A stretch of DNA of 64,000 nt from Dethiosulfovibrio peptidovorans DSM 11002 (GTDB lineage: Bacteria > Synergistota > Synergistia > Synergistales > Dethiosulfovibrionaceae): assembly GCF_000172975.1 (NCBI RefSeq), contig NZ_ABTR02000001.1, positions 1,960,501 to 2,024,500 of the forward strand. The letters are read 5' to 3'. Positions 4,251 to 16,212 of this stretch are shown piece by piece; position 1 is the first letter of the stretch; every line of letters starts with the position of its first letter. The notes under the pieces were generated by a model. The model had not been told where the DNA came from. It ran no database searches and saw only the letters and a list, made by a program, of their open reading frames with translations. Made by a program: the position numbers and the translations under genes.

Positions 4251-4403
4251 GTTCCTTAGAATTCTTCTTAAAAGCGTCGATTTTATGTGTCCAGCCTTGT
4301 GGTTTTCTATGCCATGGCTCTTATTGCGTTATTGTTTATGGGCTTTTTAGAAGTGGTATAGTATAAGACATATCTAGACTCACGACTTTAAGGAGGGGTG
4401 GAT

Positions 4404-5807
4404 ATGAAAAACTATGATTTGATAGTGATCGGGATGGGGCCAGCCGGTATGGCGGTATCCGCGATGGGGGTCTCGATGGGATTTAACGTCCTATCGATAG
4501 AGAGGCGTAAAATCGGCGGAGAGTGCCTTAACTGTGGGTGTATCCCCAGTAAGGCGTTGTTGAAAGGGGCCGAGGCATTTCATGGGCTTAAGAGGCTCTC
4601 CTCCTACGGGATCGATATCGACGCCGATATCCTCAAGGTCTCCCCTATGTCGGTGGTTCGGGATAAAATAGACGCTATAAACAGCAAAAAAACGATGAAG
4701 ATGTTCGAGAAGGTCTCCCTGATATCCGGAGAGGCCGTTCTGGATGGACCTGATGCCGTAAGGGTGAACGGCCATACCTACAGGGGAAAGCGGATATTCA
4801 TAGCTACGGGGACAAGCCCCGCCATCCCTCCTATACCTGGATTGAAGGATCTCCCCGACATTTTGACGAATGAGAATCTCTTCCAGCTTGAGGAGATACC
4901 CAAATCTATGACTATCATAGGCGGAGGTGCCATAGGCAGCGAGATGGGACAGGCATTTGCTAGATTGGGAACTAATGTGACCATCGTGCATATGGACCCC
5001 CATCTAGTGCCGACAGGGGACGAAGCTGCGGGGCACCTGCTTGAAAAGGTTATGGTGGAAGAGGGCGTTACCGTACGAAACTCCGCTTCGATAGACAGAG
5101 TGGAGAAGATAGACGGCAGGGTTTTCCTCTACTCTGGAGATGACGTTTTTGAGTCCGAAAAGCTCCTCGTGGCGGCCGGAAGGGTCCCTCGTATATCCGG
5201 TTTGAGACTGGACGAGGTTGGGGTAAACCACGATAAAAAAGGGATCTCCGTGGATCAACGTATGAGGACCAGCGTCAAAAATATATACGCCGTAGGAGAT
5301 TGTAACGGGCAATATCTTCTATCCCACGCGGCTATGCACCAGGGTATGCTGGCTTTTATGGATGCCTTATCTCCGTTCAGTCTGCCTTGGACCCGCCGAG
5401 ATCGGTATGTGGTTCCCTGGGCGGTATTTACGGAGCCGGAAATAGCTCAGGTAGGAATCACGGAGAAAGAGGCTTCAAAAAGAGGGCTAAATTACGATGT
5501 TTGCGAGAAGAAGTACAGTTCATATGGCAGGACAGTAGCGGATGGTCACCCGGAGGGGTTCGTAAAGATTATAGTCGGGAAGTCTGGTAAAATCCTTGGA
5601 GCGACCGTTATAGGTGAAGGGGCGAGTGAGCTTATTCAGGAATGGACCGTGGCCATTCAGGACAGGCGTAGGATGACCCATATCATGATGACCCAACATC
5701 CTTTCCCTTCTGTCGGAACCATCAACAAGATGGTAGCGGAGGAATGGATGATGTCGAAAATGAGATCTCCTATCCTTTGGAAACTTGCCCGTTTTATTTT
5801 GAGATGA
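4404..5807 (+). CDS. FAD-dependent pyridine nucleotide-disulfide oxidoreductase (dihydrolipoamide/mercuric reductase-like)
   Basis: The 467-residue flavoprotein belongs to the class I disulfide reductases. It has an N-terminal FAD-binding Rossmann motif (IVIGMGPAGMA) and the redox-active disulfide region GGECLNCGCIPSKALL near residue 40. There is a second GxGxxG NAD(P)H-binding motif (IIGGGAIGSEMG) near 175, the FAD motif IYAVGDC near 300, and a C-terminal dimerisation domain. The C-terminal His-Glu dyad of lipoamide dehydrogenases (HPTLSE) reads HPFPSV, so the Glu is missing. A third Cys lies between the redox pair. True lipoamide dehydrogenase activity is therefore uncertain, and there is no 2-oxoacid dehydrogenase or glycine-cleavage gene next to it. 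The ATG at 4404 is preferred over the GTG at 4398, which lies inside the ribosome-binding site AAGGAGGGG. Confidence 0.85.
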   Translation: MKNYDLIVIGMGPAGMAVSAMGVSMGFNVLSIERRKIGGECLNCGCIPSKALLKGAEAFHGLKRLSSYGIDIDADILKVSPMSVVRDKIDAINSKKTMKMFEKVSLISGEAVLDGPDAVRVNGHTYRGKRIFIATGTSPAIPPIPGLKDLPDILTNENLFQLEEIPKSMTIIGGGAIGSEMGQAFARLGTNVTIVHMDPHLVPTGDEAAGHLLEKVMVEEGVTVRNSASIDRVEKIDGRVFLYSGDDVFESEKLLVAAGRVPRISGLRLDEVGVNHDKKGISVDQRMRTSVKNIYAVGDCNGQYLLSHAAMHQGMLAFMDALSPFSLPWTRRDRYVVPWAVFTEPEIAQVGITEKEASKRGLNYDVCEKKYSSYGRTVADGHPEGFVKIIVGKSGKILGATVIGEGASELIQEWTVAIQDRRRMTHIMMTQHPFPSVGTINKMVAEEWMMSKMRSPILWKLARFILR

Positions 5808-7018: not shown

Positions 7019-7052
7019 TCTAGGGGGGAACGGTGTCTAACGCTGTTCCCCC
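7019..7052. terminator. GC-rich hairpin between convergent marR and gntR genes
   Basis: AGGGGGGAAC (7022-7031) can pair with GTTCCCCCCT (7045-7054 approximately), around a short loop that includes the gntR stop codon (7037-7039). There is no good T tract on either strand, so it may only block transcription weakly or stabilise 3' ends. Confidence 0.4.
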
Positions 7053-7702
7053 CTCGGCTTTGAGAGGAGTCCTTGACACGAGAGGTCCAGATGGTCTTTC
7101 ATCAGTTGGACGGACAGCTCCTCGTCGTGTCTGGACAGGGCGGATAATATGGCCCGATGCTCGTCGAGGCTAGGGTTATCGTGAAAATCAAAAAAATTCT
7201 CGTAGAAAACCATATAAACGTAGGTTCTGGATAACACGTTTTCTATGTACTCGGCAAGGACCACGTTGCCCGATCCCTCCGCTATTATGCTGTGGAACCT
7301 CTTGTTTATCTCCAAATAGCCCTCTAGATCCTTGTCCTCGAAGCTTTTTTCCTCTTTTTCTATCTGTTCCTCGAGTTTGCAGATCTGAAGCGGTGTTATA
7401 CGAGTTGCCGCTTTTTTTACGGACAGTCTTTCGAGGTATTCTCTTACCTCGTAGGTGCTCTCTATCTCCTCTTTCGTCGGGGCGGTCAGTCTGGCTCCCC
7501 CGTTAGGAATCAACTGCACTATTCCTTCGTTGGCTAGTTTTCTCAACGCCTCTCTTACCGGTGTGCGGCTTACGTCCAGCCGTTTGGCTATGGCTATCTC
7601 AGGAAGCCTCTGACCGGCTTTCAATTTTTTAGTCAATATCTGGCTTCTCAGTTCATGGTAGACGTAATCTGCGGTCGTAGTGTAAAAGACGTTATCTCTC
7701 AT
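7037..7702 (-). CDS. FCD-type GntR-family transcriptional regulator
   Basis: The 221-residue protein has an N-terminal winged helix (about 10-75: VYHELRSQILTKKLKAGQRLPE, then VSRTPVREALRKLANEGIV). A C-terminal all-helical FCD ligand-binding domain follows, with the metal-site pattern EVREYLE...NKRFHSIIAEGS...DEHRAILSAL (Asp/Glu and three His). FCD regulators respond to carboxylates and amino-acid derivatives. The gene is divergent from the SDR-GcvP-like operon, so it is the likely regulator of that operon. The start is chosen as the ATG ending at 7702, preceded by AGGGAGG at a good distance. An upstream in-frame ATG at 7726 lacks a binding site. Confidence 0.9.
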   Translation of the reverse strand: MRDNVFYTTTADYVYHELRSQILTKKLKAGQRLPEIAIAKRLDVSRTPVREALRKLANEGIVQLIPNGGARLTAPTKEEIESTYEVREYLERLSVKKAATRITPLQICKLEEQIEKEEKSFEDKDLEGYLEINKRFHSIIAEGSGNVVLAEYIENVLSRTYVYMVFYENFFDFHDNPSLDEHRAILSALSRHDEELSVQLMKDHLDLSCQGLLSKPRGEQR

Positions 7703-7731
7703 GCGGTTCCCTCCCTGTCTGAACAACGAAA

Positions 7732-7760
7732 ATCATACAAGAACCCCTCTGCATTTACAA
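7732..7760 (-). promoter_or_regulatory. candidate sigma-70 promoter of the gntR gene
   Basis: On the minus strand: TTGTAA (7760-7755), 17-base spacer, TATGAT (7737-7732). It is divergent from the SDR operon promoter, and their -35 boxes lie about 40 bases apart. Confidence 0.5.
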
Positions 7761-7799
7761 GCTTTCTGGTGCTAAATAATTCTAAATACAGAGAATGTG

Positions 7800-7828
7800 T
7801 TGACAAGATAGAGCGTCAGTGTTATATA
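7800..7828 (+). promoter_or_regulatory. sigma-70 promoter of the SDR-GcvP-like operon
   Basis: Perfect TTGACA (7800-7805), 17-base spacer, TATATA (7823-7828). The leader to the GTG at 7892 is only about 55 bases, too short for a glycine riboswitch. Confidence 0.8.
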
Positions 7829-7845
7829 CAAAGTGTCCAATGTAT
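7826..7845 (+). promoter_or_regulatory. candidate operator overlapping the operon promoter
   Basis: Inverted repeat ATACA-N10-TGTAT (7826-7830 and 7841-7845) covers the 3' part of the -10 box and the likely transcription start. A dimeric repressor bound here would block initiation. The divergent GntR protein is the obvious candidate, but the half-sites are short and the link is inference. Confidence 0.35.
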
Positions 7846-7891
7846 TCTATGTATACTTAAATTTTGTTATGACGATTGAGGAGGGGTAAGG

Positions 7892-8665
7892 GTGATCGAT
7901 CTTAACGAGTTTTTCGGTATGAAGGGCAAGGTGGCGTTAGTGACCGGATCGGCTTCAGGAATCGGTTTGGGGATATCTCGTTTTTTCGCAAATACCGGCG
8001 TGTCCGTTGCTATGTTCGATATAAATGGCGATGCCGGTCCGGCGAGGAGTGCCGAGATCGAAGGAGATTCTGAGTTTTTTCTGTGTGACGTGACCGATAG
8101 CGGTAGTTGTTCTTGCTGCATTGACGCTGCCTTGGAGAGGTTCGGGCGTATAGACGTATTGGTCAACTGCGCCGGTGTCGCGAGACGAAACGATGTGGTG
8201 GGGTTGAGCGAGAGCGATTGGGATCTGGCTCTCGGGGTGACGCTGAAAAGCGTATTCCTGATGTCTAAGTTCGTGGTTCCCCATATGAGGAGACAAGGCA
8301 GAGGTCGAATAGTCAACATAGGTTCTGGGTGGAGTTTCAAAGGAGGGCCTAAAGCCGTTTCATACTGTGCTGCCAAAGGAGGGGTTTGGAACATGACTAG
8401 GGCTATGGCCATAGATCTGGGACCGGACAACATAAACGTGAACTGCGTGTGTCCCGGAGATATCGATACCCCTATGTTAAAAAGCGAGTGCGAGCAGTTA
8501 GGTGGGGTGTACGACGAGAACTACAGAGAGGAGTGTTCTAAAAGGCCGATCAAAAGGCTGGGAACCCCGGAGGACGTGGCCAAATGTGTTTTCTTTCTAG
8601 CTAGCGACATGTCTCCTTGGGTGACCGGAAGTAGTTTGGTCGTCGATGGCGGCGGGATTGCATAG
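7892..8665 (+). CDS. short-chain dehydrogenase/reductase (SDR), probably NAD-dependent
   Basis: Classical SDR of 257 residues. It has the cofactor motif TGSASGIG near residue 18, NCAGVARR near 92, the catalytic Ser within NIGSGWS near 143, and the YxxxK motif SYCAAKGG near 155. CPGDIDTPM is the post-catalytic proline loop, and the C-terminus is the usual TGSSLVVDGGG. An Asp at the end of the second beta strand (MFDING) suggests NAD rather than NADP. It is the first gene of the operon, starting at a GTG after GAGGAGGGG. Family members oxidise alcohols, hydroxyacids or diols. The physiological substrate is unknown and would be linked to the GcvP-like proteins encoded next. Confidence 0.9.
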   Translation: MIDLNEFFGMKGKVALVTGSASGIGLGISRFFANTGVSVAMFDINGDAGPARSAEIEGDSEFFLCDVTDSGSCSCCIDAALERFGRIDVLVNCAGVARRNDVVGLSESDWDLALGVTLKSVFLMSKFVVPHMRRQGRGRIVNIGSGWSFKGGPKAVSYCAAKGGVWNMTRAMAIDLGPDNINVNCVCPGDIDTPMLKSECEQLGGVYDENYREECSKRPIKRLGTPEDVAKCVFFLASDMSPWVTGSSLVVDGGGIA

Positions 8666-8688
8666 ATTTTAACTTCAGGAGGTCTGTC

Positions 8689-10068
8689 ATGAAAAAAGTG
8701 TATCCCTATATACCGAACTCGGCACCGGAAGCACAGAAAGAGATGCTCGAGTATATAGGAGTCCAATCCATAGACGATTTGCTTGTCGACATACCGAAAG
8801 AACTTCGGATCAGAGGAGGTTTGAAGCTTCCCCGTCCATGTCTTTCGGAGGCGGAACTCCGTCGACATATGGACGGAATAATCGACAAAAACATCCCGGC
8901 AGGTAGGAGTATATCCTTTCTCGGAGCTGGTTGTTACAACCATCAGGTTCCGGCGGTGGTGGACGAGGTAGTCTCTTCAGCCGAGTTCCTGACAGCCTAT
9001 GCTGGCGAACCCTACGAGGATCACGGGCGTTTTCAGGCTCTCTTTGAATATCAGAGCATGATGGCCGAGCTTCTGGACGTGGATGTCTGTAACGTCCCGA
9101 CCTACGACGGAGCTCAGGCGGCTGCGACCTCGCTCAGAATGGCTTCCCGTGTTAGCGGTCGAAATGTGATCCTATTGGCTGGAGCTATCGATCCTGATCG
9201 CAGGGCGGTTATCGAAACGTATCTGGATCCGGTTCTTTCTGTCGAATATCTGGGTTACGACGAGAAAACAGGGCTGGTAAATCCAGCCGAACTGAAAGAG
9301 ATTTTGAACGATAAGGTCGCGGCGGTATACGTCGAGAATCCCTCCTTCCTGGGGTCGATTGAGGAAAGGGGAGCTTCTATAGCTCAAATTGCTCACGATG
9401 AGGGAGCGCTTTTCGTCGTATACGTCGATCCGAGTTCTCTGGGTGTTTTAACCCCTCCATCTCGATACGGGGCAGATATCTCCTGTGGAGATATCCAATC
9501 TTTGGGGATTCACATGAACTACGGTACCGGTGGCGGTTTTATAGCTACTAAAGACGATCCTCGGATAGTCGAGGAATATCCGTCAAGGCTGTTTAGTCTG
9601 GCTCCCACCTCCGGAGGGGAGTGGGGCTTCGGAGACGTCCTGTGGGAGAGGACCTCCTTCGCCAATAGGGAGACCGCTAAAGAATTCGTCGGAACCCACT
9701 CCGCCTTATGGGGAATCGGAGCTGGAGTATATCTGGCTACCATGGGACCTCGTGGAATGGAGGATCTCGGACGGGGCATAATGCAGCGTTCTCTCTATGC
9801 TAAAAAACGTCTTTCCGAAATTCCGGGGGTCTCTACCGATCGTTTCGGATCGGTGTCATTTAAGGAGTTCGTCGTCGATTTCAATCACACCGGGAAATGC
9901 GTGAAAGATATCAACGAGTATCTGTTGGGTAAGGGCATATTCGGAGGCAAAGATATCTCCTCGGATTTTAAAGAACTGGGGCAGTGTGCTCTCTTCTGCG
10001 TTACCGAGATGATAAGCGCCGAGGATATCGATTTTCTCGTGGAGACTCTACGGGATTGTCTAGGGTAA
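8689..10068 (+). CDS. GcvPA-like protein (glycine dehydrogenase alpha-subunit paralogue)
   Basis: The 459-residue protein aligns along its length with the alpha subunit of two-subunit glycine decarboxylase. It has an N-terminal YIPNSAPEAQKEMLEYIGVQSI, the SFLGAGCYNHQVPAVVDEVV stretch and the YDGAQAAATSLRMASR region, and keeps the PLP type I fold. The alpha subunit does not carry the PLP lysine. Two conserved stretches diverge. The canonical 'PYQPEISQG' after the TAY motif is replaced by AGEPYEDHG. The canonical 'QSLGLP-FGGP-GFFA' glycine-rich segment reads QSLGIHMNYGTGGGFIA. These sit near the active site in the known family, so substrate specificity may differ. It starts at ATG after CAGGAGGT, 23 bases after the SDR stop. 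'gcvPA' would be a family label, not a proven function. Confidence 0.82.
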   Translation: MKKVYPYIPNSAPEAQKEMLEYIGVQSIDDLLVDIPKELRIRGGLKLPRPCLSEAELRRHMDGIIDKNIPAGRSISFLGAGCYNHQVPAVVDEVVSSAEFLTAYAGEPYEDHGRFQALFEYQSMMAELLDVDVCNVPTYDGAQAAATSLRMASRVSGRNVILLAGAIDPDRRAVIETYLDPVLSVEYLGYDEKTGLVNPAELKEILNDKVAAVYVENPSFLGSIEERGASIAQIAHDEGALFVVYVDPSSLGVLTPPSRYGADISCGDIQSLGIHMNYGTGGGFIATKDDPRIVEEYPSRLFSLAPTSGGEWGFGDVLWERTSFANRETAKEFVGTHSALWGIGAGVYLATMGPRGMEDLGRGIMQRSLYAKKRLSEIPGVSTDRFGSVSFKEFVVDFNHTGKCVKDINEYLLGKGIFGGKDISSDFKELGQCALFCVTEMISAEDIDFLVETLRDCLG

Positions 10069-10084
10069 GCGGGGAGGTCTCGAT

Positions 10085-11656
10085 ATGAATAAAACCGCTA
10101 TGATCCGTAGATTTCACCAGGCGAGTTGGGATGAACCGATAATATTCGATCTCAGCGAACCAGGTCAGAGAGGGGTATTGGTGCCTGAGGCGGGGCCGAA
10201 GATAGAGGAATCCGTTGGAGATGGTCTCTCCGCCATCCCGGAATCCATGCGTCGCTCCGATATTCCGCTGTTGCCCGAGATGGGACAGCCTCAGGTGTTG
10301 CGACATTTCAACCATCTGGCCCAGGAGAACCTGGGAGCCGATTACAACGTCGACATAGGACAGGGGACCTGTACGATGAAGTACAGCCCTAAGGTCAACG
10401 AGATATTTGCAACTTCCTCTAAAATAGCCGATCTCCATCCCTATCAAGATGAATCAACCGTCCAAGGAGCTCTTGAGGTCATGTACCGCCTGGGGGAGTG
10501 TTTCAAGGAGATTTCCGGCCTGGACTGTTTCAGTCTTCAGCCTGGAGGTGGATCACACGGAGCTCTGGCGATGGCCACCGTAGTTCGTTCATATTTTAGG
10601 GATAGAGGCGAGGAGGATCGTAGAGACGAGGTGATAACCACTTTTTTCTCCCATCCCGCCGACGCGGCCGTTCCGATAGTGAAGGGGTTTAAGGTGGTCG
10701 TCCTTCCGCCCGATAAGGACGGTTTGCCCGATTTCGAAGCCTTTAAGGCCGCTTTATCCGATCGTACTGCCGCTATATTTTTCACCAATCCCGAGGACAC
10801 CGGTATATTCAACGGTCGTATAAAGGATTTCACCGGTTTGGCCAGGAAATTCGGTGCTCTATGTTGCTATGACCAGGCCAATGCCAACGGATTGCTCGGT
10901 ATCGCTCGGGCGAAAGAGGCCGATTTTGATCTCTCATTTTTCAATCTTCATAAGACTTTCTCATCCCCTCACGGATGTGGAGGTCCTGCAACAGGTCTGG
11001 TCGCTGCTAGGCAGTTCCTAGGGACTTACCTGCCCGCCCCTCTGGTCGTTAAAAAAGGAGACCGTTTTTCGCTGGACTGGGATATGCCTAAAAGCTGTGG
11101 GAAGATAAAGGCGTTTTACGGCACTCTTCCGGTTATCGTCAGGGCTTATGCCTGGATTATGAGCCTAGGAGCCGAAGGTCTGAACGAGGCCTCCAGGGTA
11201 GCCATTCTCAACAATAACTATGTTATGAAAAAGCTTCTCTCCATAAAGGGCTGTTCCATCTCCTTTCCCGATCATGCTCCGAGAATAGAACAAGCGAGGT
11301 ACAGCTGGAGAAAACTCAAAGAGGACACGGGGTTCGGCACCGAGGACGTTCAGCGTCGTATAGCTGACTTCGGAACCCATTACTGGTCCAGTCACGAACC
11401 CTGGGTTATCCCCGAACCCTTTACAGTCGAACCGAGCGAGTCCTATTCAAAGGCCGATCTCGACGAGTTCTGTGCCATATTGGAACGGATCTCCCAAGAG
11501 TGTTACGACGATCCCGATACTATACGACATGCTCCGCATAATAGCACCATACACCACGTGGATCACGACGTTTTGGACGATCCCGATCTTTGGGCCATAA
11601 CCTGGAGATCCTACAAAAAGAAATACGACGGCTATTTTGAGAGAAGGAAAGATTGA
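10085..11656 (+). CDS. GcvPB-like protein (PLP-binding glycine dehydrogenase beta-subunit paralogue)
   Basis: The 523-residue type I PLP protein has GcvPB hallmarks: GTCTMKYSPKVNE near 95, HPYQDESTVQGALEVMY near 118, LQPGGGSHGAL near 151, and the PLP-lysine motif NLHKTFSSPHG with Lys290. It departs from glycine decarboxylase at several otherwise conserved places. The 'AHGTNPASA' loop reads SHPADAA, 'PLGSCTMKYNP' reads IGQGTCTMKYSP, 'HGGGGPG' reads HGCGGPATG, the 'HEFV' motif is replaced near IEQARYSWRKL, and GFHPPT-YFP reads GTHYWSSHEPWVIPEP. It is longer than the usual 480-490 residues. Together with the GcvPA-like protein it would form an alpha2-beta2 enzyme, possibly a decarboxylase for another amino acid. 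No GcvH or GcvT acceptor is encoded nearby. A strong hairpin follows the stop. Confidence 0.82.
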   Translation: MNKTAMIRRFHQASWDEPIIFDLSEPGQRGVLVPEAGPKIEESVGDGLSAIPESMRRSDIPLLPEMGQPQVLRHFNHLAQENLGADYNVDIGQGTCTMKYSPKVNEIFATSSKIADLHPYQDESTVQGALEVMYRLGECFKEISGLDCFSLQPGGGSHGALAMATVVRSYFRDRGEEDRRDEVITTFFSHPADAAVPIVKGFKVVVLPPDKDGLPDFEAFKAALSDRTAAIFFTNPEDTGIFNGRIKDFTGLARKFGALCCYDQANANGLLGIARAKEADFDLSFFNLHKTFSSPHGCGGPATGLVAARQFLGTYLPAPLVVKKGDRFSLDWDMPKSCGKIKAFYGTLPVIVRAYAWIMSLGAEGLNEASRVAILNNNYVMKKLLSIKGCSISFPDHAPRIEQARYSWRKLKEDTGFGTEDVQRRIADFGTHYWSSHEPWVIPEPFTVEPSESYSKADLDEFCAILERISQECYDDPDTIRHAPHNSTIHHVDHDVLDDPDLWAITWRSYKKKYDGYFERRKD

Positions 11657-11660
11657 TTCT

Positions 11661-11708
11661 CGGCCTTTGGACGTGGGTTTCGGTTCACGTCCAAAGGCCG
11701 TTCTTCTT
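11661..11708 (+). terminator. intrinsic terminator or attenuator inside the operon
   Basis: 15-bp perfect stem CGGCCTTTGGACGTG/CACGTCCAAAGGCCG (11661-11675 with 11686-11700), 10-base loop, tail TTCTTCTTT. It begins 5 bases after the GcvPB-like stop and 29 bases before the next start. The tail is interrupted by C, so read-through to the AcoX-like gene is likely. Confidence 0.8.
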
Positions 11709-11728
11709 TAGAAAAGAGGAGTGATGCT

Positions 11729-12847
11729 TTGAAAACCGTCGGTTTTATAGTCAACCCCGTCGCAGGAATGGGAGGGGCGGTGGGACTAAAGGGAACCGAT
11801 GGCCCGGAGATCCTGGAGCGGGCCATCGCTTTGGGTGCTGTCCCTAAGGCGAAGGAAAGGGCGATCTCAGTCCTGAGAGGATTGATAGATCTCAATGGGG
11901 TTCGATGGATAACCTGTCCCGGTCCTATGGGTGAGGAGGCGTTTCTGTCTTTAGGCATGGATTTTGAGGTGTTAGGCGGCGATTTCGCAATTCCCACGAC
12001 CGGTCGAGATACCGCTTTCGCGATCGAAAAAATGATCGAGATGAACGTGGATCTTCTGAGTTTTGTCGGAGGGGACGGTACAGCCAGAGACGTAGCGTCC
12101 GTAATTGGAGATCGAATACCGGTCGTAGGGATTCCCGGCGGGGTTAAGTTGCACTCCGCGGTTTTCGCGAAGACTCCGCTGAAAGCGGGGGAAATACTCG
12201 AGAGATATATCAGGGGGAGGATAGACGACTTTCGTCTTGCCGAGGTGATGGACATAGATGAAAAAGCGTTCAGAGATGGGAGACTGTCCGCCAGCCTTTA
12301 CGGATATATGAGAGTCCCGGTATCACCGGAGGGCATGCAGTCTAAGAAGTCGGGAAGACACAGAGAGTCGTCGTCCTTCCGATTGAAGGAACTAGCCTGT
12401 TACGTCGCTTCTTCCATGGATGAAGACGTCATATATCTACTTGGGTCGGGGTCCACCGTTAAGGGGCTTTCAGACTATCTCGGTATCGACGGAACCTTGC
12501 TCGGCGTCGATGCCGTCATAGGAGGAAGGATGATCGGCAAGGATATGACCGAGGAAGAGATAAGGAAAGCGATCGAAGCTACCTCCCTCAGGGTAGCCAT
12601 GATTCTCTCTCCAATAGGAGGTCAGGGATTTCTGTTGGGAAGAGGAAACCAACAGCTTAGTCCCGATATCGTTCGTTCCGTAGGAAAGGAGGGGATATCG
12701 GTTATAGCAACCCCTGAAAAAATGGAGGCACTTTTCGGAAAACCTCTGCTGGTAGATACGGGGGACCGAGAGCTGGACGAAGATCTGAAGGGATTTGTGT
12801 CGGTTATAGTCGGAGACAGCAGAGAGCTTATATGGCCTTTGGAATGA
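11729..12847 (+). CDS. AcoX-type ATP-NAD kinase-family protein
   Basis: The 372-residue protein has the NAD kinase fold. It starts KTVGFIVNPVAGMGG and carries a KGTDGPEILERAIALG segment typical of the AcoX branch. It has the nucleotide-binding GGDGTARD motif near 114-121 and the IPGGVKLHSAVFAKTP stretch. The C-terminal half contains a second glycine-rich unit (SPIGGQGFLLGRGNQQLSP). AcoX proteins occur in acetoin-catabolic and amino-acid-reductase gene clusters. Their exact reaction is not well defined, and kinase activity on NAD is inferred from fold. It starts at a TTG with AAGAGGAG 7 bases upstream. Its place between the GcvP-like pair and the antiporter links it to the same pathway. Confidence 0.85.
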   Translation: MKTVGFIVNPVAGMGGAVGLKGTDGPEILERAIALGAVPKAKERAISVLRGLIDLNGVRWITCPGPMGEEAFLSLGMDFEVLGGDFAIPTTGRDTAFAIEKMIEMNVDLLSFVGGDGTARDVASVIGDRIPVVGIPGGVKLHSAVFAKTPLKAGEILERYIRGRIDDFRLAEVMDIDEKAFRDGRLSASLYGYMRVPVSPEGMQSKKSGRHRESSSFRLKELACYVASSMDEDVIYLLGSGSTVKGLSDYLGIDGTLLGVDAVIGGRMIGKDMTEEEIRKAIEATSLRVAMILSPIGGQGFLLGRGNQQLSPDIVRSVGKEGISVIATPEKMEALFGKPLLVDTGDRELDEDLKGFVSVIVGDSRELIWPLE

Positions 12848-12883
12848 TGGTTGAATGTGAACTTGGTTGGGAGGTATTTAAGG

Positions 12884-14440
12884 ATGGAATCTGTCGGATA
12901 CGGATTATGGGCGGTATTGCCGCCTTTGGTCGCCATAATACTGTGTTTCAGGACCAAGATGGTCCTTCCGTCGCTTTTTGCCGGGCTTTTTACCGGAGCG
13001 GTTATAGTATCGCACGGTAATGTCCTCGCAGGTATCGGATACTCTCTTGAGACGATCGTCGATAACATGGTGGATCCATGGAACGCGAGATTGCTGCTTT
13101 TTACTTTTTTCATGGGAGTAGGGATATCCTTCATATGGAGGCTGGGAGGCAGCTTTGCATTGGCGGATCAGGCCAAGAAGAGGATAAAGACCAGAAGATC
13201 GGTCTGTCTCGGTACCTGGCTTTTGGGAATGGGCACATCCATCAACGATTGTCTGGTCGCCGCCGTCGATGGCAACGTCTTCAGGGATATCTGCAAGGAG
13301 TACAGGGTCTCTTCCGAGAAATTTTCATACGTTCTAGATTCCACAGCCGCTCCGGCCGCCGCTCTCTTCATATCCGATTGGGTTGCCTACCAGATAGGGA
13401 TGATTCAACAGGGATTGGATATCGCCGGAATAACTACCATAAAACCTGTGGAGGCTTACGTTAAGACCATTCCGTTCAACCTCTATTCCATATTTACGTT
13501 GTTTTTCGTTGGAGTTCTTATGTATACGGGCAAGGACTATGGACCGATGTTAAAGGCGGAGATGAGGGCTATCTCTACGGGTAAGTTCAACCGGGATGGA
13601 GCCGTACCGATGTTGGACGTAGGGTCTGAGCTGGGAGAACCTATAAAGACCAACCCGATGATTATAACATTCGTACTGCCCCTTGTAGCGGCTTTCGTGG
13701 TTATTCTAGCGGGGCTTTACTGGACCGGAAGGAGCGGAACCTCTCTTATGGGGGTTTTGGAGAATTCGGATGCGTCGATAGCCTTGCTTTGGGGAGCCTT
13801 TGCTATGGCGGCGACGGGGGTAGCACTGGCTCTTACGACGAGAATAATGGACTTCAAGGACGCTATGGATACCTTCGTAGATGGTTTTAAACTGATGGTC
13901 TTGACCGCCTCCATATTGGTGATGGCATGGTCCCTTGGTGCGATAACGAAGGAGATGGGGTTGGCTCAATTCATAATAGAAAAAATCGGAATGGAGTTAC
14001 CCTTCGTGGTGCTTCCAGTGATTATCTTCTTGCTCTCTATATTAATAGCTTTTGCCACCGGGACATCTTGGGGAACCATGGCCATCATGACTCCCTTGGC
14101 TATTCCCCTCGCTTACAACATAACGGGGGATCCCTCGACATCGTCCGCCATTGCCGGTGTGGTTCTGTCCGGTGCTATATTCGGAGATCACTGTTCACCG
14201 ATATCCGATACAACCGTGATGTCTTCTATCTTTTCCGGAGCCGATCATATAGATCATGTAGCCACCCAGTTACCCTACGCCATTACCGTAGCTGTGGTGG
14301 TGTTGTCCATGTACATCTTATACGGGGCTTTCAGGATCTCTCCTGCGGTTTTAATACCTATAGGCATGGTCTTGCTATTGTTGCTGCAGAAACTCCTTCA
14401 CGTGGGGTACTTGAGAGGTTTGAGAATGAGTGAATCTTAG
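12884..14440 (+). CDS. NhaC-family Na+/H+ antiporter-type transporter
   Basis: The 518-residue polytopic membrane protein has about 11-12 hydrophobic segments. NhaC-superfamily hallmarks include FATGTSWGTMAIMTPLAIPLA near 395 and GDHCSPISDTTVMSS near 430, the most conserved block of the family. The family exchanges Na+ for H+ or, as in the malate/lactate type (MleN), couples Na+ to organic-acid movement. Since it ends a catabolic-looking operon, it may export an acidic product or import the substrate. The preferred start is ATG 12884 after GGGAGG; the TTG at 12851 would add 11 residues without a clear site. A terminator follows 18 bases after the stop. Confidence 0.88.
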   Translation: MESVGYGLWAVLPPLVAIILCFRTKMVLPSLFAGLFTGAVIVSHGNVLAGIGYSLETIVDNMVDPWNARLLLFTFFMGVGISFIWRLGGSFALADQAKKRIKTRRSVCLGTWLLGMGTSINDCLVAAVDGNVFRDICKEYRVSSEKFSYVLDSTAAPAAALFISDWVAYQIGMIQQGLDIAGITTIKPVEAYVKTIPFNLYSIFTLFFVGVLMYTGKDYGPMLKAEMRAISTGKFNRDGAVPMLDVGSELGEPIKTNPMIITFVLPLVAAFVVILAGLYWTGRSGTSLMGVLENSDASIALLWGAFAMAATGVALALTTRIMDFKDAMDTFVDGFKLMVLTASILVMAWSLGAITKEMGLAQFIIEKIGMELPFVVLPVIIFLLSILIAFATGTSWGTMAIMTPLAIPLAYNITGDPSTSSAIAGVVLSGAIFGDHCSPISDTTVMSSIFSGADHIDHVATQLPYAITVAVVVLSMYILYGAFRISPAVLIPIGMVLLLLLQKLLHVGYLRGLRMSES

Positions 14441-14682: not shown

Positions 14683-14711
14683 ATAATACCATGGAGGTTG
14701 GATGTTCGCAA
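14683..14711 (-). promoter_or_regulatory. sigma-70 promoter of the tRNA-Gln/Glu unit
   Basis: On the minus strand: TTGCGA (14711-14706), 17-base spacer, TATTAT (14688-14683), 35 bases upstream of tRNA-Gln. Confidence 0.8.
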
Positions 14712-14761
14712 CCCCGGAATAAATATCAAAATAGTCTCTTTTTTGGACGTACTTCTCCTCT

Positions 14762-14789
14762 TTTACGAAAGCGGCTGTATGGCTATAAT
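14762..14789 (+). promoter_or_regulatory. candidate promoter of the aldolase-like gene
   Basis: TTTACG (14762-14767), 16-base spacer, perfect TATAAT (14784-14789). Transcription would begin near 14796. That makes the in-frame starts at 14698-14788 unusable and favours ATG 14869. Confidence 0.6.
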
Positions 14790-14868
14790 GTCAAAAGAGG
14801 AACGAAGTATTTGGAACGTCTATTTCAGCGTACCTCTAAAAACAAAAGTTCTCAGTGAGGTTGTCCCG

Positions 14869-16212
14869 ATGGATCTCGAATGGGAGGATCTCACGGAGGA
14901 AGAGGTCTTAGAGGTTCCGCCTAGACGTTATCGTGTTATCTTGAGGAGTGATAGTGTTATGGTATCTAACGAGAGTTCTTTTCTCGACAGACGTCCTCTA
15001 AACGTCAGAGCTAGATGGGGTTCCGAGGACGTGGCATTGGTCAGCGGACGGGATGTTTTCGGAGCTATGAAATACAAAGGAGCAATTGCCTTGGCTGCGA
15101 ACGCCAGACATCCCCTTACCGTAAAAGGTATTCTGAAAGCGGCAAAAAAACTTGACGCCGCGGTTGTGATAGAGATAGCGAAATCGGAGACCAACTATTG
15201 TGGAAGTAATTTCGATACTCTGCCGGAGGCTGCCGTTCGATATTCGTCCGAAATCGGTCACGGAGCTGTCTTTGCCCTTCACGTGGATCACTACGGTATA
15301 AAGGGTTACGACGACGTGATCAAGGCGGTCTCCGATTTAGGTAGGATAGTCAGAAATGGTTGGACCTCCGTCGCCATAGACGCCTCCCATCTTCCCGATT
15401 GGGAGAACCTTTGTGCTACCAGAGATGTCGCTATGCACGTGCCCCCTTATTTCGGTCTGGAGGTAGAGGTGGGCGAGATAAAAGGAGCCGGGGAACTTTC
15501 AACGGTCGAGGAGGCTCTGTACTTCGTAGGCGGATTGAATTCCTGGAGTATCTTTCCTGATCTTTTGGCCATCTCGAACGGGAGTTTGCACGGTACCTAC
15601 GATGCCTCGAAGGGGCAGGCGGAGGGGATTGATCTCAAGAGGACGAAGGAAATCGCCGAAGCCATTGCTCCCTACGGTGTATCCATAGCTCAACACGGCA
15701 TATCCGGTACCGCCATAGACAAGTGTGCTGAATTCTCAAAATACGGCATAAACAAGGGCAACGTGGCGACCTTATTCCAAAATGTGCTGTTCGGAATCAA
15801 GATGGACCAGGAGACCGGTAATGCCGTAATAGAAGGGGATAGCTACGTAAAAGAGCCGGATCGAGGGATACCGATGGATCTATGGAATGATCTGGTCTCT
15901 TGGTGTGACGATCAGGGCTATAGCCGTAAGGACGGTAACTATAAAAAAGCCAATCTTCCTTTCTGGGAGCGAATAGAGTCTCTTCCTTCGGAGCGTCTCG
16001 ACATGATAGTCGAGGAGACCCAGTGGTGGGCCGAGAGGTTCATAAAGGCCTTCAACGCGGAGGGAACCGCCGAAATAGTCAAGGAAAGGATGTCTTCCAG
16101 GGAAAACTGGAATCCGTTCCCCGACACTAAAGTCCAAGCCTCTCGAGGGGATTTTGGTGCGGACAAAGCTCCCAACGCAGCTAAGAAAGACGGCGAGGAT
16201 TACTCCGACTAG
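14869..16212 (+). CDS. class II (metal-dependent) fructose-bisphosphate aldolase-like protein
   Basis: The 447-residue TIM-barrel protein carries class II aldolase motifs: a metal-binding HVDHYG near 135, the AIDASH segment that carries an Asp near 167, EVEVGEIKGAGE near 205, SNGSLHGTYDASKGQ near 240, and a further His in AQHGISG near 278. These correspond to zinc and phosphate-binding positions in FbaA/GatY-type enzymes, which cleave or form ketose bisphosphates. The protein is longer than the 285-360 residues usual for the family, because of about 100 extra C-terminal residues rich in Trp and charge. The exact sugar substrate is not evident. The frame is open back to 14698, but a -10 box at 14784 and the GTGAGG before 14869 support the later start. 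Confidence 0.8.
   Translation: MDLEWEDLTEEEVLEVPPRRYRVILRSDSVMVSNESSFLDRRPLNVRARWGSEDVALVSGRDVFGAMKYKGAIALAANARHPLTVKGILKAAKKLDAAVVIEIAKSETNYCGSNFDTLPEAAVRYSSEIGHGAVFALHVDHYGIKGYDDVIKAVSDLGRIVRNGWTSVAIDASHLPDWENLCATRDVAMHVPPYFGLEVEVGEIKGAGELSTVEEALYFVGGLNSWSIFPDLLAISNGSLHGTYDASKGQAEGIDLKRTKEIAEAIAPYGVSIAQHGISGTAIDKCAEFSKYGINKGNVATLFQNVLFGIKMDQETGNAVIEGDSYVKEPDRGIPMDLWNDLVSWCDDQGYSRKDGNYKKANLPFWERIESLPSERLDMIVEETQWWAERFIKAFNAEGTAEIVKERMSSRENWNPFPDTKVQASRGDFGADKAPNAAKKDGEDYSD

Follow-up and report, generated by a model that had tools for sequence, protein, structure and literature searches.

The gene cluster at positions 7037-14440 of the 64-kb stretch of Dethiosulfovibrio peptidovorans DSM 11002 DNA analysed here (C1:1960501-2024500, on contig 1; the genome measures 2.58 Mb and is rated as 100% complete; hereafter the window) raises the question whether two genes that carry the signatures of the glycine decarboxylase subunits GcvPA and GcvPB encode a glycine decarboxylase at all. 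They stand in a co-directional run with a short-chain dehydrogenase (SDR), an AcoX-like protein and a Na_H_antiporter-family transporter, and a preliminary description of this DNA had proposed an inducible catabolic route in which a GcvP-like pyridoxal phosphate (PLP) enzyme acts on a substrate other than glycine. Judged from sequence comparison, the cluster probably (at roughly 0.7) represents an inducible, H-protein-independent PLP enzyme module of amino-acid catabolism, with an NAD-type SDR and a kinase-fold AcoX protein. It is also fairly probable, if a little less so, that SDR-GcvPA-like-GcvPB-like-AcoX constitutes a hitherto undescribed pathway for amino acids, centred on a deep-branching, H-independent sister of glycine decarboxylase that bacteria and Asgard archaea share. 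A description of the family or the module was not found in the open-access literature, subscription papers and preprints being outside the scope.

The GcvPA-like subunit (PA; 8689-10068, + strand) contains a GDC-P domain and scores 468.8 bits with the NCBIfam GcvPA model (cut-off 364), and the GcvPB-like subunit (PB; 10085-11656, + strand) scores 518.5 bits with the GcvPB model (cut-off 441). The same genome carries a second, complete operon, gcvT-gcvH-gcvPA-gcvPB-lpd, at about C1:99.2-105.0 kb, which makes another glycine decarboxylase redundant, and the canonical GcvPB encoded there has just 41% identity to the window PB. Full-length matches to the window PB in 151 Synergistota genomes fall into two groups, a divergent one at 50% identity or more (47 genomes) and a canonical one at 41% or less. 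A GcvPB tree was built from 92 rows, among them canonical sequences from Synergistota, Clostridium, Aminicenantes, Desulfobacterales, Chloroflexota, Asgard archaea and E. coli. In it a single branch (length 1.36; Shimodaira-Hasegawa-like approximate likelihood ratio, SH-aLRT, support 100) separates the 63 divergent rows, without exception, from the others. When PA and PB were placed in a joint tree, the divergent PA rows formed one clade and the divergent PB rows another (99 and 99), which indicates that both subunits diverged together. The preliminary description had named tree placement beforehand as a refuting test, and the pair falls outside canonical glycine decarboxylase. It is uncertain at which point the family joins canonical GcvP, as the branch is long and the canonical groups are weakly supported (26 and 76).

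The PLP machinery is kept in both families, namely T97, M98, K99, H190, D263 and the PLP lysine K290 of PB (window numbering), and K290, H190 and D263 are invariant in the GcvPB-like family. The pair is built like glycine decarboxylase and may share its chemistry at PLP. Twenty PB and nine PA columns are near-fixed within each family, but to residues that differ between the families. In PB the canonical PLGS is replaced by GQGT, AHGT by SHP(S/A), TNP(N/S)T by TNPED, DGAN by DQAN, HGGGGP by HGCGGP and HE by EQ; in PA the canonical loop YTPYQPE(I/V)SQG reads YAG-EPYEDHG, and in the alignment this loop offers no counterpart of human Tyr164. A docking study of human GLDC assigned contact with the H-protein to Gln366, His371, Ile372, Arg373 and Lys376 (PMC7259800). 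In the window PA these five places, which form a putative H-docking segment, are aligned with W, F, A, N and T. The predicted structure of PB is GcvPB-like, with 9a73_B and 1wyt_B as best matches and S1P lyase and cysteine desulfurases next. The model is of moderate quality (predicted local distance difference test, pLDDT, 71.8) and weak around the catalytic loops, probably as PA is absent from it.

The 64-kb window contains no gcvH, gcvT or lplA, as the preliminary description had noted for gcvH, gcvT and lipoate genes; the only copies in the genome lie elsewhere on the contig (C1:103426, C1:104139 and C1:524734, respectively). Among the 47 pair-bearing Synergistota genomes, GcvT is present in exactly 23, those that also have a canonical GcvPB (Fisher 6e-14), and was not found in the other 24. 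GcvH exceeds its cut-off in these 23 genomes and in two more (Fisher 2e-11), and is missing or below the cut-off in the remaining 22 of 47. The GcvH-less set includes closed genomes, with two of one contig (G072 and G026) and a two-contig one (G020), so that gaps in assembly are not the cause of the absence. Nineteen of the 22 genomes in this set gave no above-cut-off match to LplA (TIGR00545); as an argument for H-independence this was set aside as weak, because other lipoylation routes are reported in Synergistota (PMC10332631). The AcoX protein is distributed together with the pair: it occurs in 48 of the 151 genomes, the pair in 47 and both in 46 (Fisher 4e-35, kinship not corrected for). 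The exceptions are the pair without AcoX in G127 and AcoX without the pair in G063 and G087, while G011 and G099 each carry divergent PB as well as AcoX in two copies.

Further relatives were taken from a scan of GTDB contigs, as the best 80 of 576 candidate stretches, with names as deposited and many of them metagenome-assembled genomes. Sequences 56-82% identical occur in Synergistota, Atribacteria, Bipolaricaulota, Aminicenantes, Desulfobacterales, Chloroflexota and Clostridium and, in the same range of identity, in the archaeal Bathyarchaeota, Brockarchaeota, Heimdallarchaeota, Hodarchaeota and Lokiarchaeota. Synergistota commonly carry the family (the 47 genomes above), whereas it is rare in Clostridia (3 of 245). 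The gene order SDR(-SDR)-PA-PB-AcoX repeats across the loci. At 40 non-redundant divergent loci with at least 4.5 kb on either side, PA was near PB in 40, an SDR in 34, AcoX in 32 and SDR together with AcoX in 28, and neither GcvH nor GcvT was near the pair in any of the 40. Twenty canonical loci, some in these genomes and some in others, served as control and gave GcvH in 18, GcvT in 14 and no SDR or AcoX. The SDR-PA-PB-AcoX order thus recurs across phyla without gcvH or gcvT, so that a chance neighbourhood, another refuting outcome named in the preliminary description, is not borne out. The NhaC-type gene of the window adjoins the module within the genus only. Because the H and T partners are lacking in many of the organisms, and the putative H-docking residues and a place in the canonical clade are lacking too, the pair is not filed as glycine decarboxylase; by sequence it is a separate family. 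The proposal of a GcvP-like enzyme with a non-glycine substrate therefore held in part, the pair being non-canonical by trees, neighbourhood and GcvH/GcvT-less genomes, while its substrate may or may not be glycine.

The inducible nature of the module, which had also been proposed, is supported by a conserved local regulator and operator. The FCD-type GntR gene (7037-7726, - strand; Pfam GntR and FCD) is divergent from the operon, and many Synergistota, as well as Atribacteria L101, have a regulator of the same family next to the module. The perfect -35 hexamer described earlier is present as an exact TTGACA at 7800-7805, with TATATA 17 bp further on, and together they make up a candidate promoter read from the sequence (7800-7828, + strand). 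A consensus promoter scan gave this TTGACA/TATATA pair no score, since TATATA fails the second-hexamer rule of the scan. The operator-like inverted repeat noted at the first gene is also borne out, as the palindrome is present and a phased site, GTATTC-N3-GTATAC (7842-7856, + strand), is conserved in related genera. This putative operator consists of two half-sites in 9-bp phasing and lies a short way past the -10 region, a position from which a repressor, once bound, could prevent transcription. Sixteen non-redundant loci were surveyed between the GntR gene and SDR/PA and compared with shuffled sequences; GTATAC was found in 14 of 16 (shuffled mean 0.94, maximum 5) and the 9-bp-phased GTAT(A/T)C-N3-GTAT(A/T)C in 10 of 16 (shuffled 0.0). 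The paired operator matches the 2.58 Mb genome once, at the window site itself, and in 11 other genomes searched most matches are also at the module. A second copy of the operator lies upstream of the Na_H_antiporter-family gene of the same cluster in G025 and at the start of the corresponding gene in G018, which suggests that a transporter of this type joins the regulon in those relatives. Two matches away from the module, both GTATTC-N3-GTATTC (G073:C32:3715-3729 and G095:C90:9827-9841), may be further regulon members or chance.

The window SDR (7892-8665, + strand; Pfam adh_short) has the classical SDR motifs, TGSASGIG for TGxxxGxG and YCAAK for YxxxK, the latter being found in 138 of 138 module SDRs. 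The Asp after the second beta-strand (MFDING) suggests a preference for NAD(H). The module SDRs belong mainly to two orthologous families, SDR-A, which includes the window enzyme and forms a clade across phyla, and SDR-B, which is encoded upstream in loci of Asgard, Aminicenantes and Bacillota and for which the window's genome shows no clear orthologue. Nearest among models and structures were dihydroanticapsin, butanediol and glucose dehydrogenases and FabG, all of them generic, and they were rejected as a guide to the SDR substrate. The AcoX-like protein (11729-12847, + strand) belongs to the NAD-kinase/DAG-kinase superfamily (Pfam NAD_kinase 72.4 bits, NAD_kinase_C 55.7 bits, and a weak DAGK_cat match), with GGDGTAR invariant among 35 AcoX-like sequences. 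It found no relative in the PDB by sequence search; its model is good (pLDDT 90.2), with a fold only weakly like DgkB and yeast NADH kinase. The assignment of the last gene (12851-14440, + strand) as NhaC-type stands at the level of the broad Pfam family Na_H_antiporter and not at that of the NhaC equivalog (TIGR00931, 41.7 bits against a cut-off of 370). In several lineages of Synergistota the module has other Na_H_antiporter genes as neighbours.

In such a module the GntR regulator would release its operator when a small carboxylate, an amino or hydroxy acid, is present, and the Na+-type transporter would carry the inducing acid or a product. SDR-A with NAD+ would oxidise the hydroxyl beside the amino-bearing carbon to give a 2-amino-3-oxo compound, which PA-PB would hold as an aldimine on Lys290 of PB while a bond at C-alpha is broken by decarboxylation or C-C cleavage. 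The carbanion would then be protonated, or trapped by a small acceptor in place of lipoyl-H; SDR-B, where encoded, would take the next carbonyl, and AcoX might phosphorylate an intermediate or the nicotinamide cofactor. This specific beta-hydroxy-amino-acid chemistry, from SDR-A by way of the 2-amino-3-oxo compound to PA-PB, is a tentative suggestion. The catabolic character of the module is in agreement with the genes for amino-acid or carboxylate transport, deacylases, amidohydrolases, racemases and aminotransferases that stand beside it in various lineages, such as amino-acid permeases (APC) in Synergistota (L053) and Clostridium (L112) and, in Desulfobacterales (L109), an ABC transporter of the Glu/Asp type accompanied by an amino-acid racemase. 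Each of these is confined to limited lineages, and so are TRAP-type carriers with an M20 deacylase, Amidohydro_3 hydrolases, lysine 2,3-aminomutase, aldehyde ferredoxin oxidoreductase and fucosidases.

Several points weigh against an H-independent module of amino-acid catabolism. GcvH and GcvT exist in the window's own genome, so GcvH could be used there, and the H-docking residues stem from a docking model of human GLDC and not from the structure of a complex. The support is wholly sequence-based, and the neighbouring genes disagree on the substrate; those of limited lineages share no common one, so that gene context was rejected as a source for the substrate. Glycosidases and fucosidases, moreover, border the module in some Aminicenantes and Bacteroidota loci.

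The least unlikely alternative is that glycine or a close analogue is still decarboxylated and that the aminomethyl carbanion is passed to a small electrophile, an aldehyde or acyl thioester, rather than to lipoyl-H, with the SDR reducing or oxidising the condensed product and AcoX phosphorylating it. Fold-type I PLP enzymes other than GcvP perform decarboxylative or Claisen-type condensations, the folds that come next after GcvPB for the PB model include S1P lyase, the PLP core is common to the pair and canonical GcvP, and a reductase and a lipid-kinase-like protein would suit a condensed product. We nevertheless regard this as doubtful, as the active-site loops around glycine in the canonical enzymes are replaced in the pair, and the context of transport, hydrolase and regulator genes looks catabolic.

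A breakdown of sugar-derived hydroxy acids, for instance from deoxysugars, in which the SDRs would be sugar-acid dehydrogenases and the PLP enzyme would act on an aminated intermediate, is considerably less likely. It would account for the alpha-L-fucosidases, GH63-like hydrolases, sulfatase and Amidohydro_2 proteins encoded next to the module at several loci of Aminicenantes and Bacteroidota, and for the L-lactate permease with an enolase-superfamily protein that is also beside it in several of them, and the SDR models do include butanediol and glucose dehydrogenases; the annotated Synergistota loci, however, showed no sugar genes beside the module but genes for transport or hydrolysis of amino acids, N-acyl compounds or carboxylates, and the glycosidase adjacency may be incidental. 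That the pair is a second glycine decarboxylase borrowing GcvH and GcvT from other places in the genome, as equivalog scores above cut-off in both subunits and the presence of these two genes might suggest, is most improbable in view of the 22 and 24 pair-bearing genomes that have no above-cut-off GcvH and no GcvT, respectively, the replaced putative H-docking residues and the lack of gcvH or gcvT near any of the 40 divergent loci, and for the family the genomes without these genes rule it out.

The H-independent module can be compared with three known systems. It shares with the GcvPA/GcvPB P-protein of Thermus thermophilus (1WYT/1WYU/1WYV) two homologous subunits, the fold-type I PLP fold, the PLP lysine in an HK motif, TMK and the H and D residues, and differs in that the divergent pair occurs in many genomes without H or T, forms a separate clade, is partnered by SDR and AcoX and has switched active-site and putative H-docking segments. 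In aco clusters an AcoX-type protein likewise stands next to a dehydrogenase, whereas the catalytic partner in the module is a PLP enzyme, and no acetoin dehydrogenase E1 or E2 genes were found beside the module among the annotated neighbours. The pathway of threonine dehydrogenase (TDH) and 2-amino-3-ketobutyrate CoA ligase (KBL) might be regarded as analogous, with a beta-hydroxy amino acid as the substrate of a dehydrogenase and a PLP enzyme, while the module has a classical SDR and a GcvP-like PLP enzyme, and KBL is absent among the annotated module genes. A TDH-like medium-chain dehydrogenase is found in the module of a sister Synergistota subfamily only, and its scores of 232.9 and 211.4 bits stay under the respective TDH cut-offs of 380 and 458.35. 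In that subfamily (L075-L085) PB is about 50% identical and the neighbours are different: L080-L082 have the TDH-like dehydrogenase together with DUF819, M20 deacylase and TRAP genes, and in L075-L079 other genes separate AcoX from PA.

The pair is probably widely misannotated, as the NCBIfam models name it GcvPA/GcvPB. Annotation and metabolic models read these names as glycine cleavage, which fails in part of the Synergistota and is doubtful wherever the divergent family occurs, several archaeal and candidate-phylum lineages included. As a consequence, genomes would be credited with an impossible glycine oxidation and a different amino-acid reaction would be overlooked. If our reading is true, a family is hidden in the databases under the name glycine dehydrogenase, and a glycine-decarboxylase-like enzyme without a lipoyl H-protein would show chemistry freed from the carrier. 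The strict partnership with the pair also gives AcoX a testable setting and, if the reading holds, an AcoX pathway outside acetoin clusters.

The layout of the cluster agrees with the preliminary description, in which a divergent FCD-GntR gene is followed by co-directional SDR, GcvPA-like, GcvPB-like and AcoX genes with short gaps: open reading frames and Pfam/NCBIfam assignments are concordant, all six reading frames of 7037-14440 are intact, and the gaps in the + strand run from SDR to transporter are 23, 16, 72 and 3 bp. The GntR gene may in fact start about 24 bp further in than the listed TTG, at an ATG. Two further genes lie near the operon. After it, at 14698-16212, a 504-aa protein has a class II fructose-bisphosphate-aldolase-like domain (residues ~119-364) behind a long N-terminal part; it is under every aldolase equivalog cut-off and trails the operon in the window's genus only. 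At 4398-5807, 1.2 kb before the regulator, lies a dihydrolipoyl-dehydrogenase-like disulfide oxidoreductase that scores 365.7 bits with the lipoamide dehydrogenase model (cut-off 408.8), the true lpd being in the canonical gcv operon. Both were rejected as members of the module, as they do not recur with it beyond close relatives.

Some further arrangements were observed at individual loci. On the Desulfobacterales chromosome, the gene at L109:14213-15094, after the Glu/Asp-type ABC transporter and downstream of the module, passes the NCBIfam cut-off for cysteate racemase (CuyB). Alpha-L-fucosidase or GH63-like glycosidase genes directly adjoin PA-PB in L121, L122, L139 and L158 (Aminicenantes, Bacteroidota and unclassified). 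In two Anaerolineae loci a gene for a CaiB-type CoA-transferase lies between PA and PB (L140:932-2131 and L161:6651-7850), and in L140 AcoX is followed by genes for an aldehyde ferredoxin oxidoreductase and a glutamine-synthetase-like protein.

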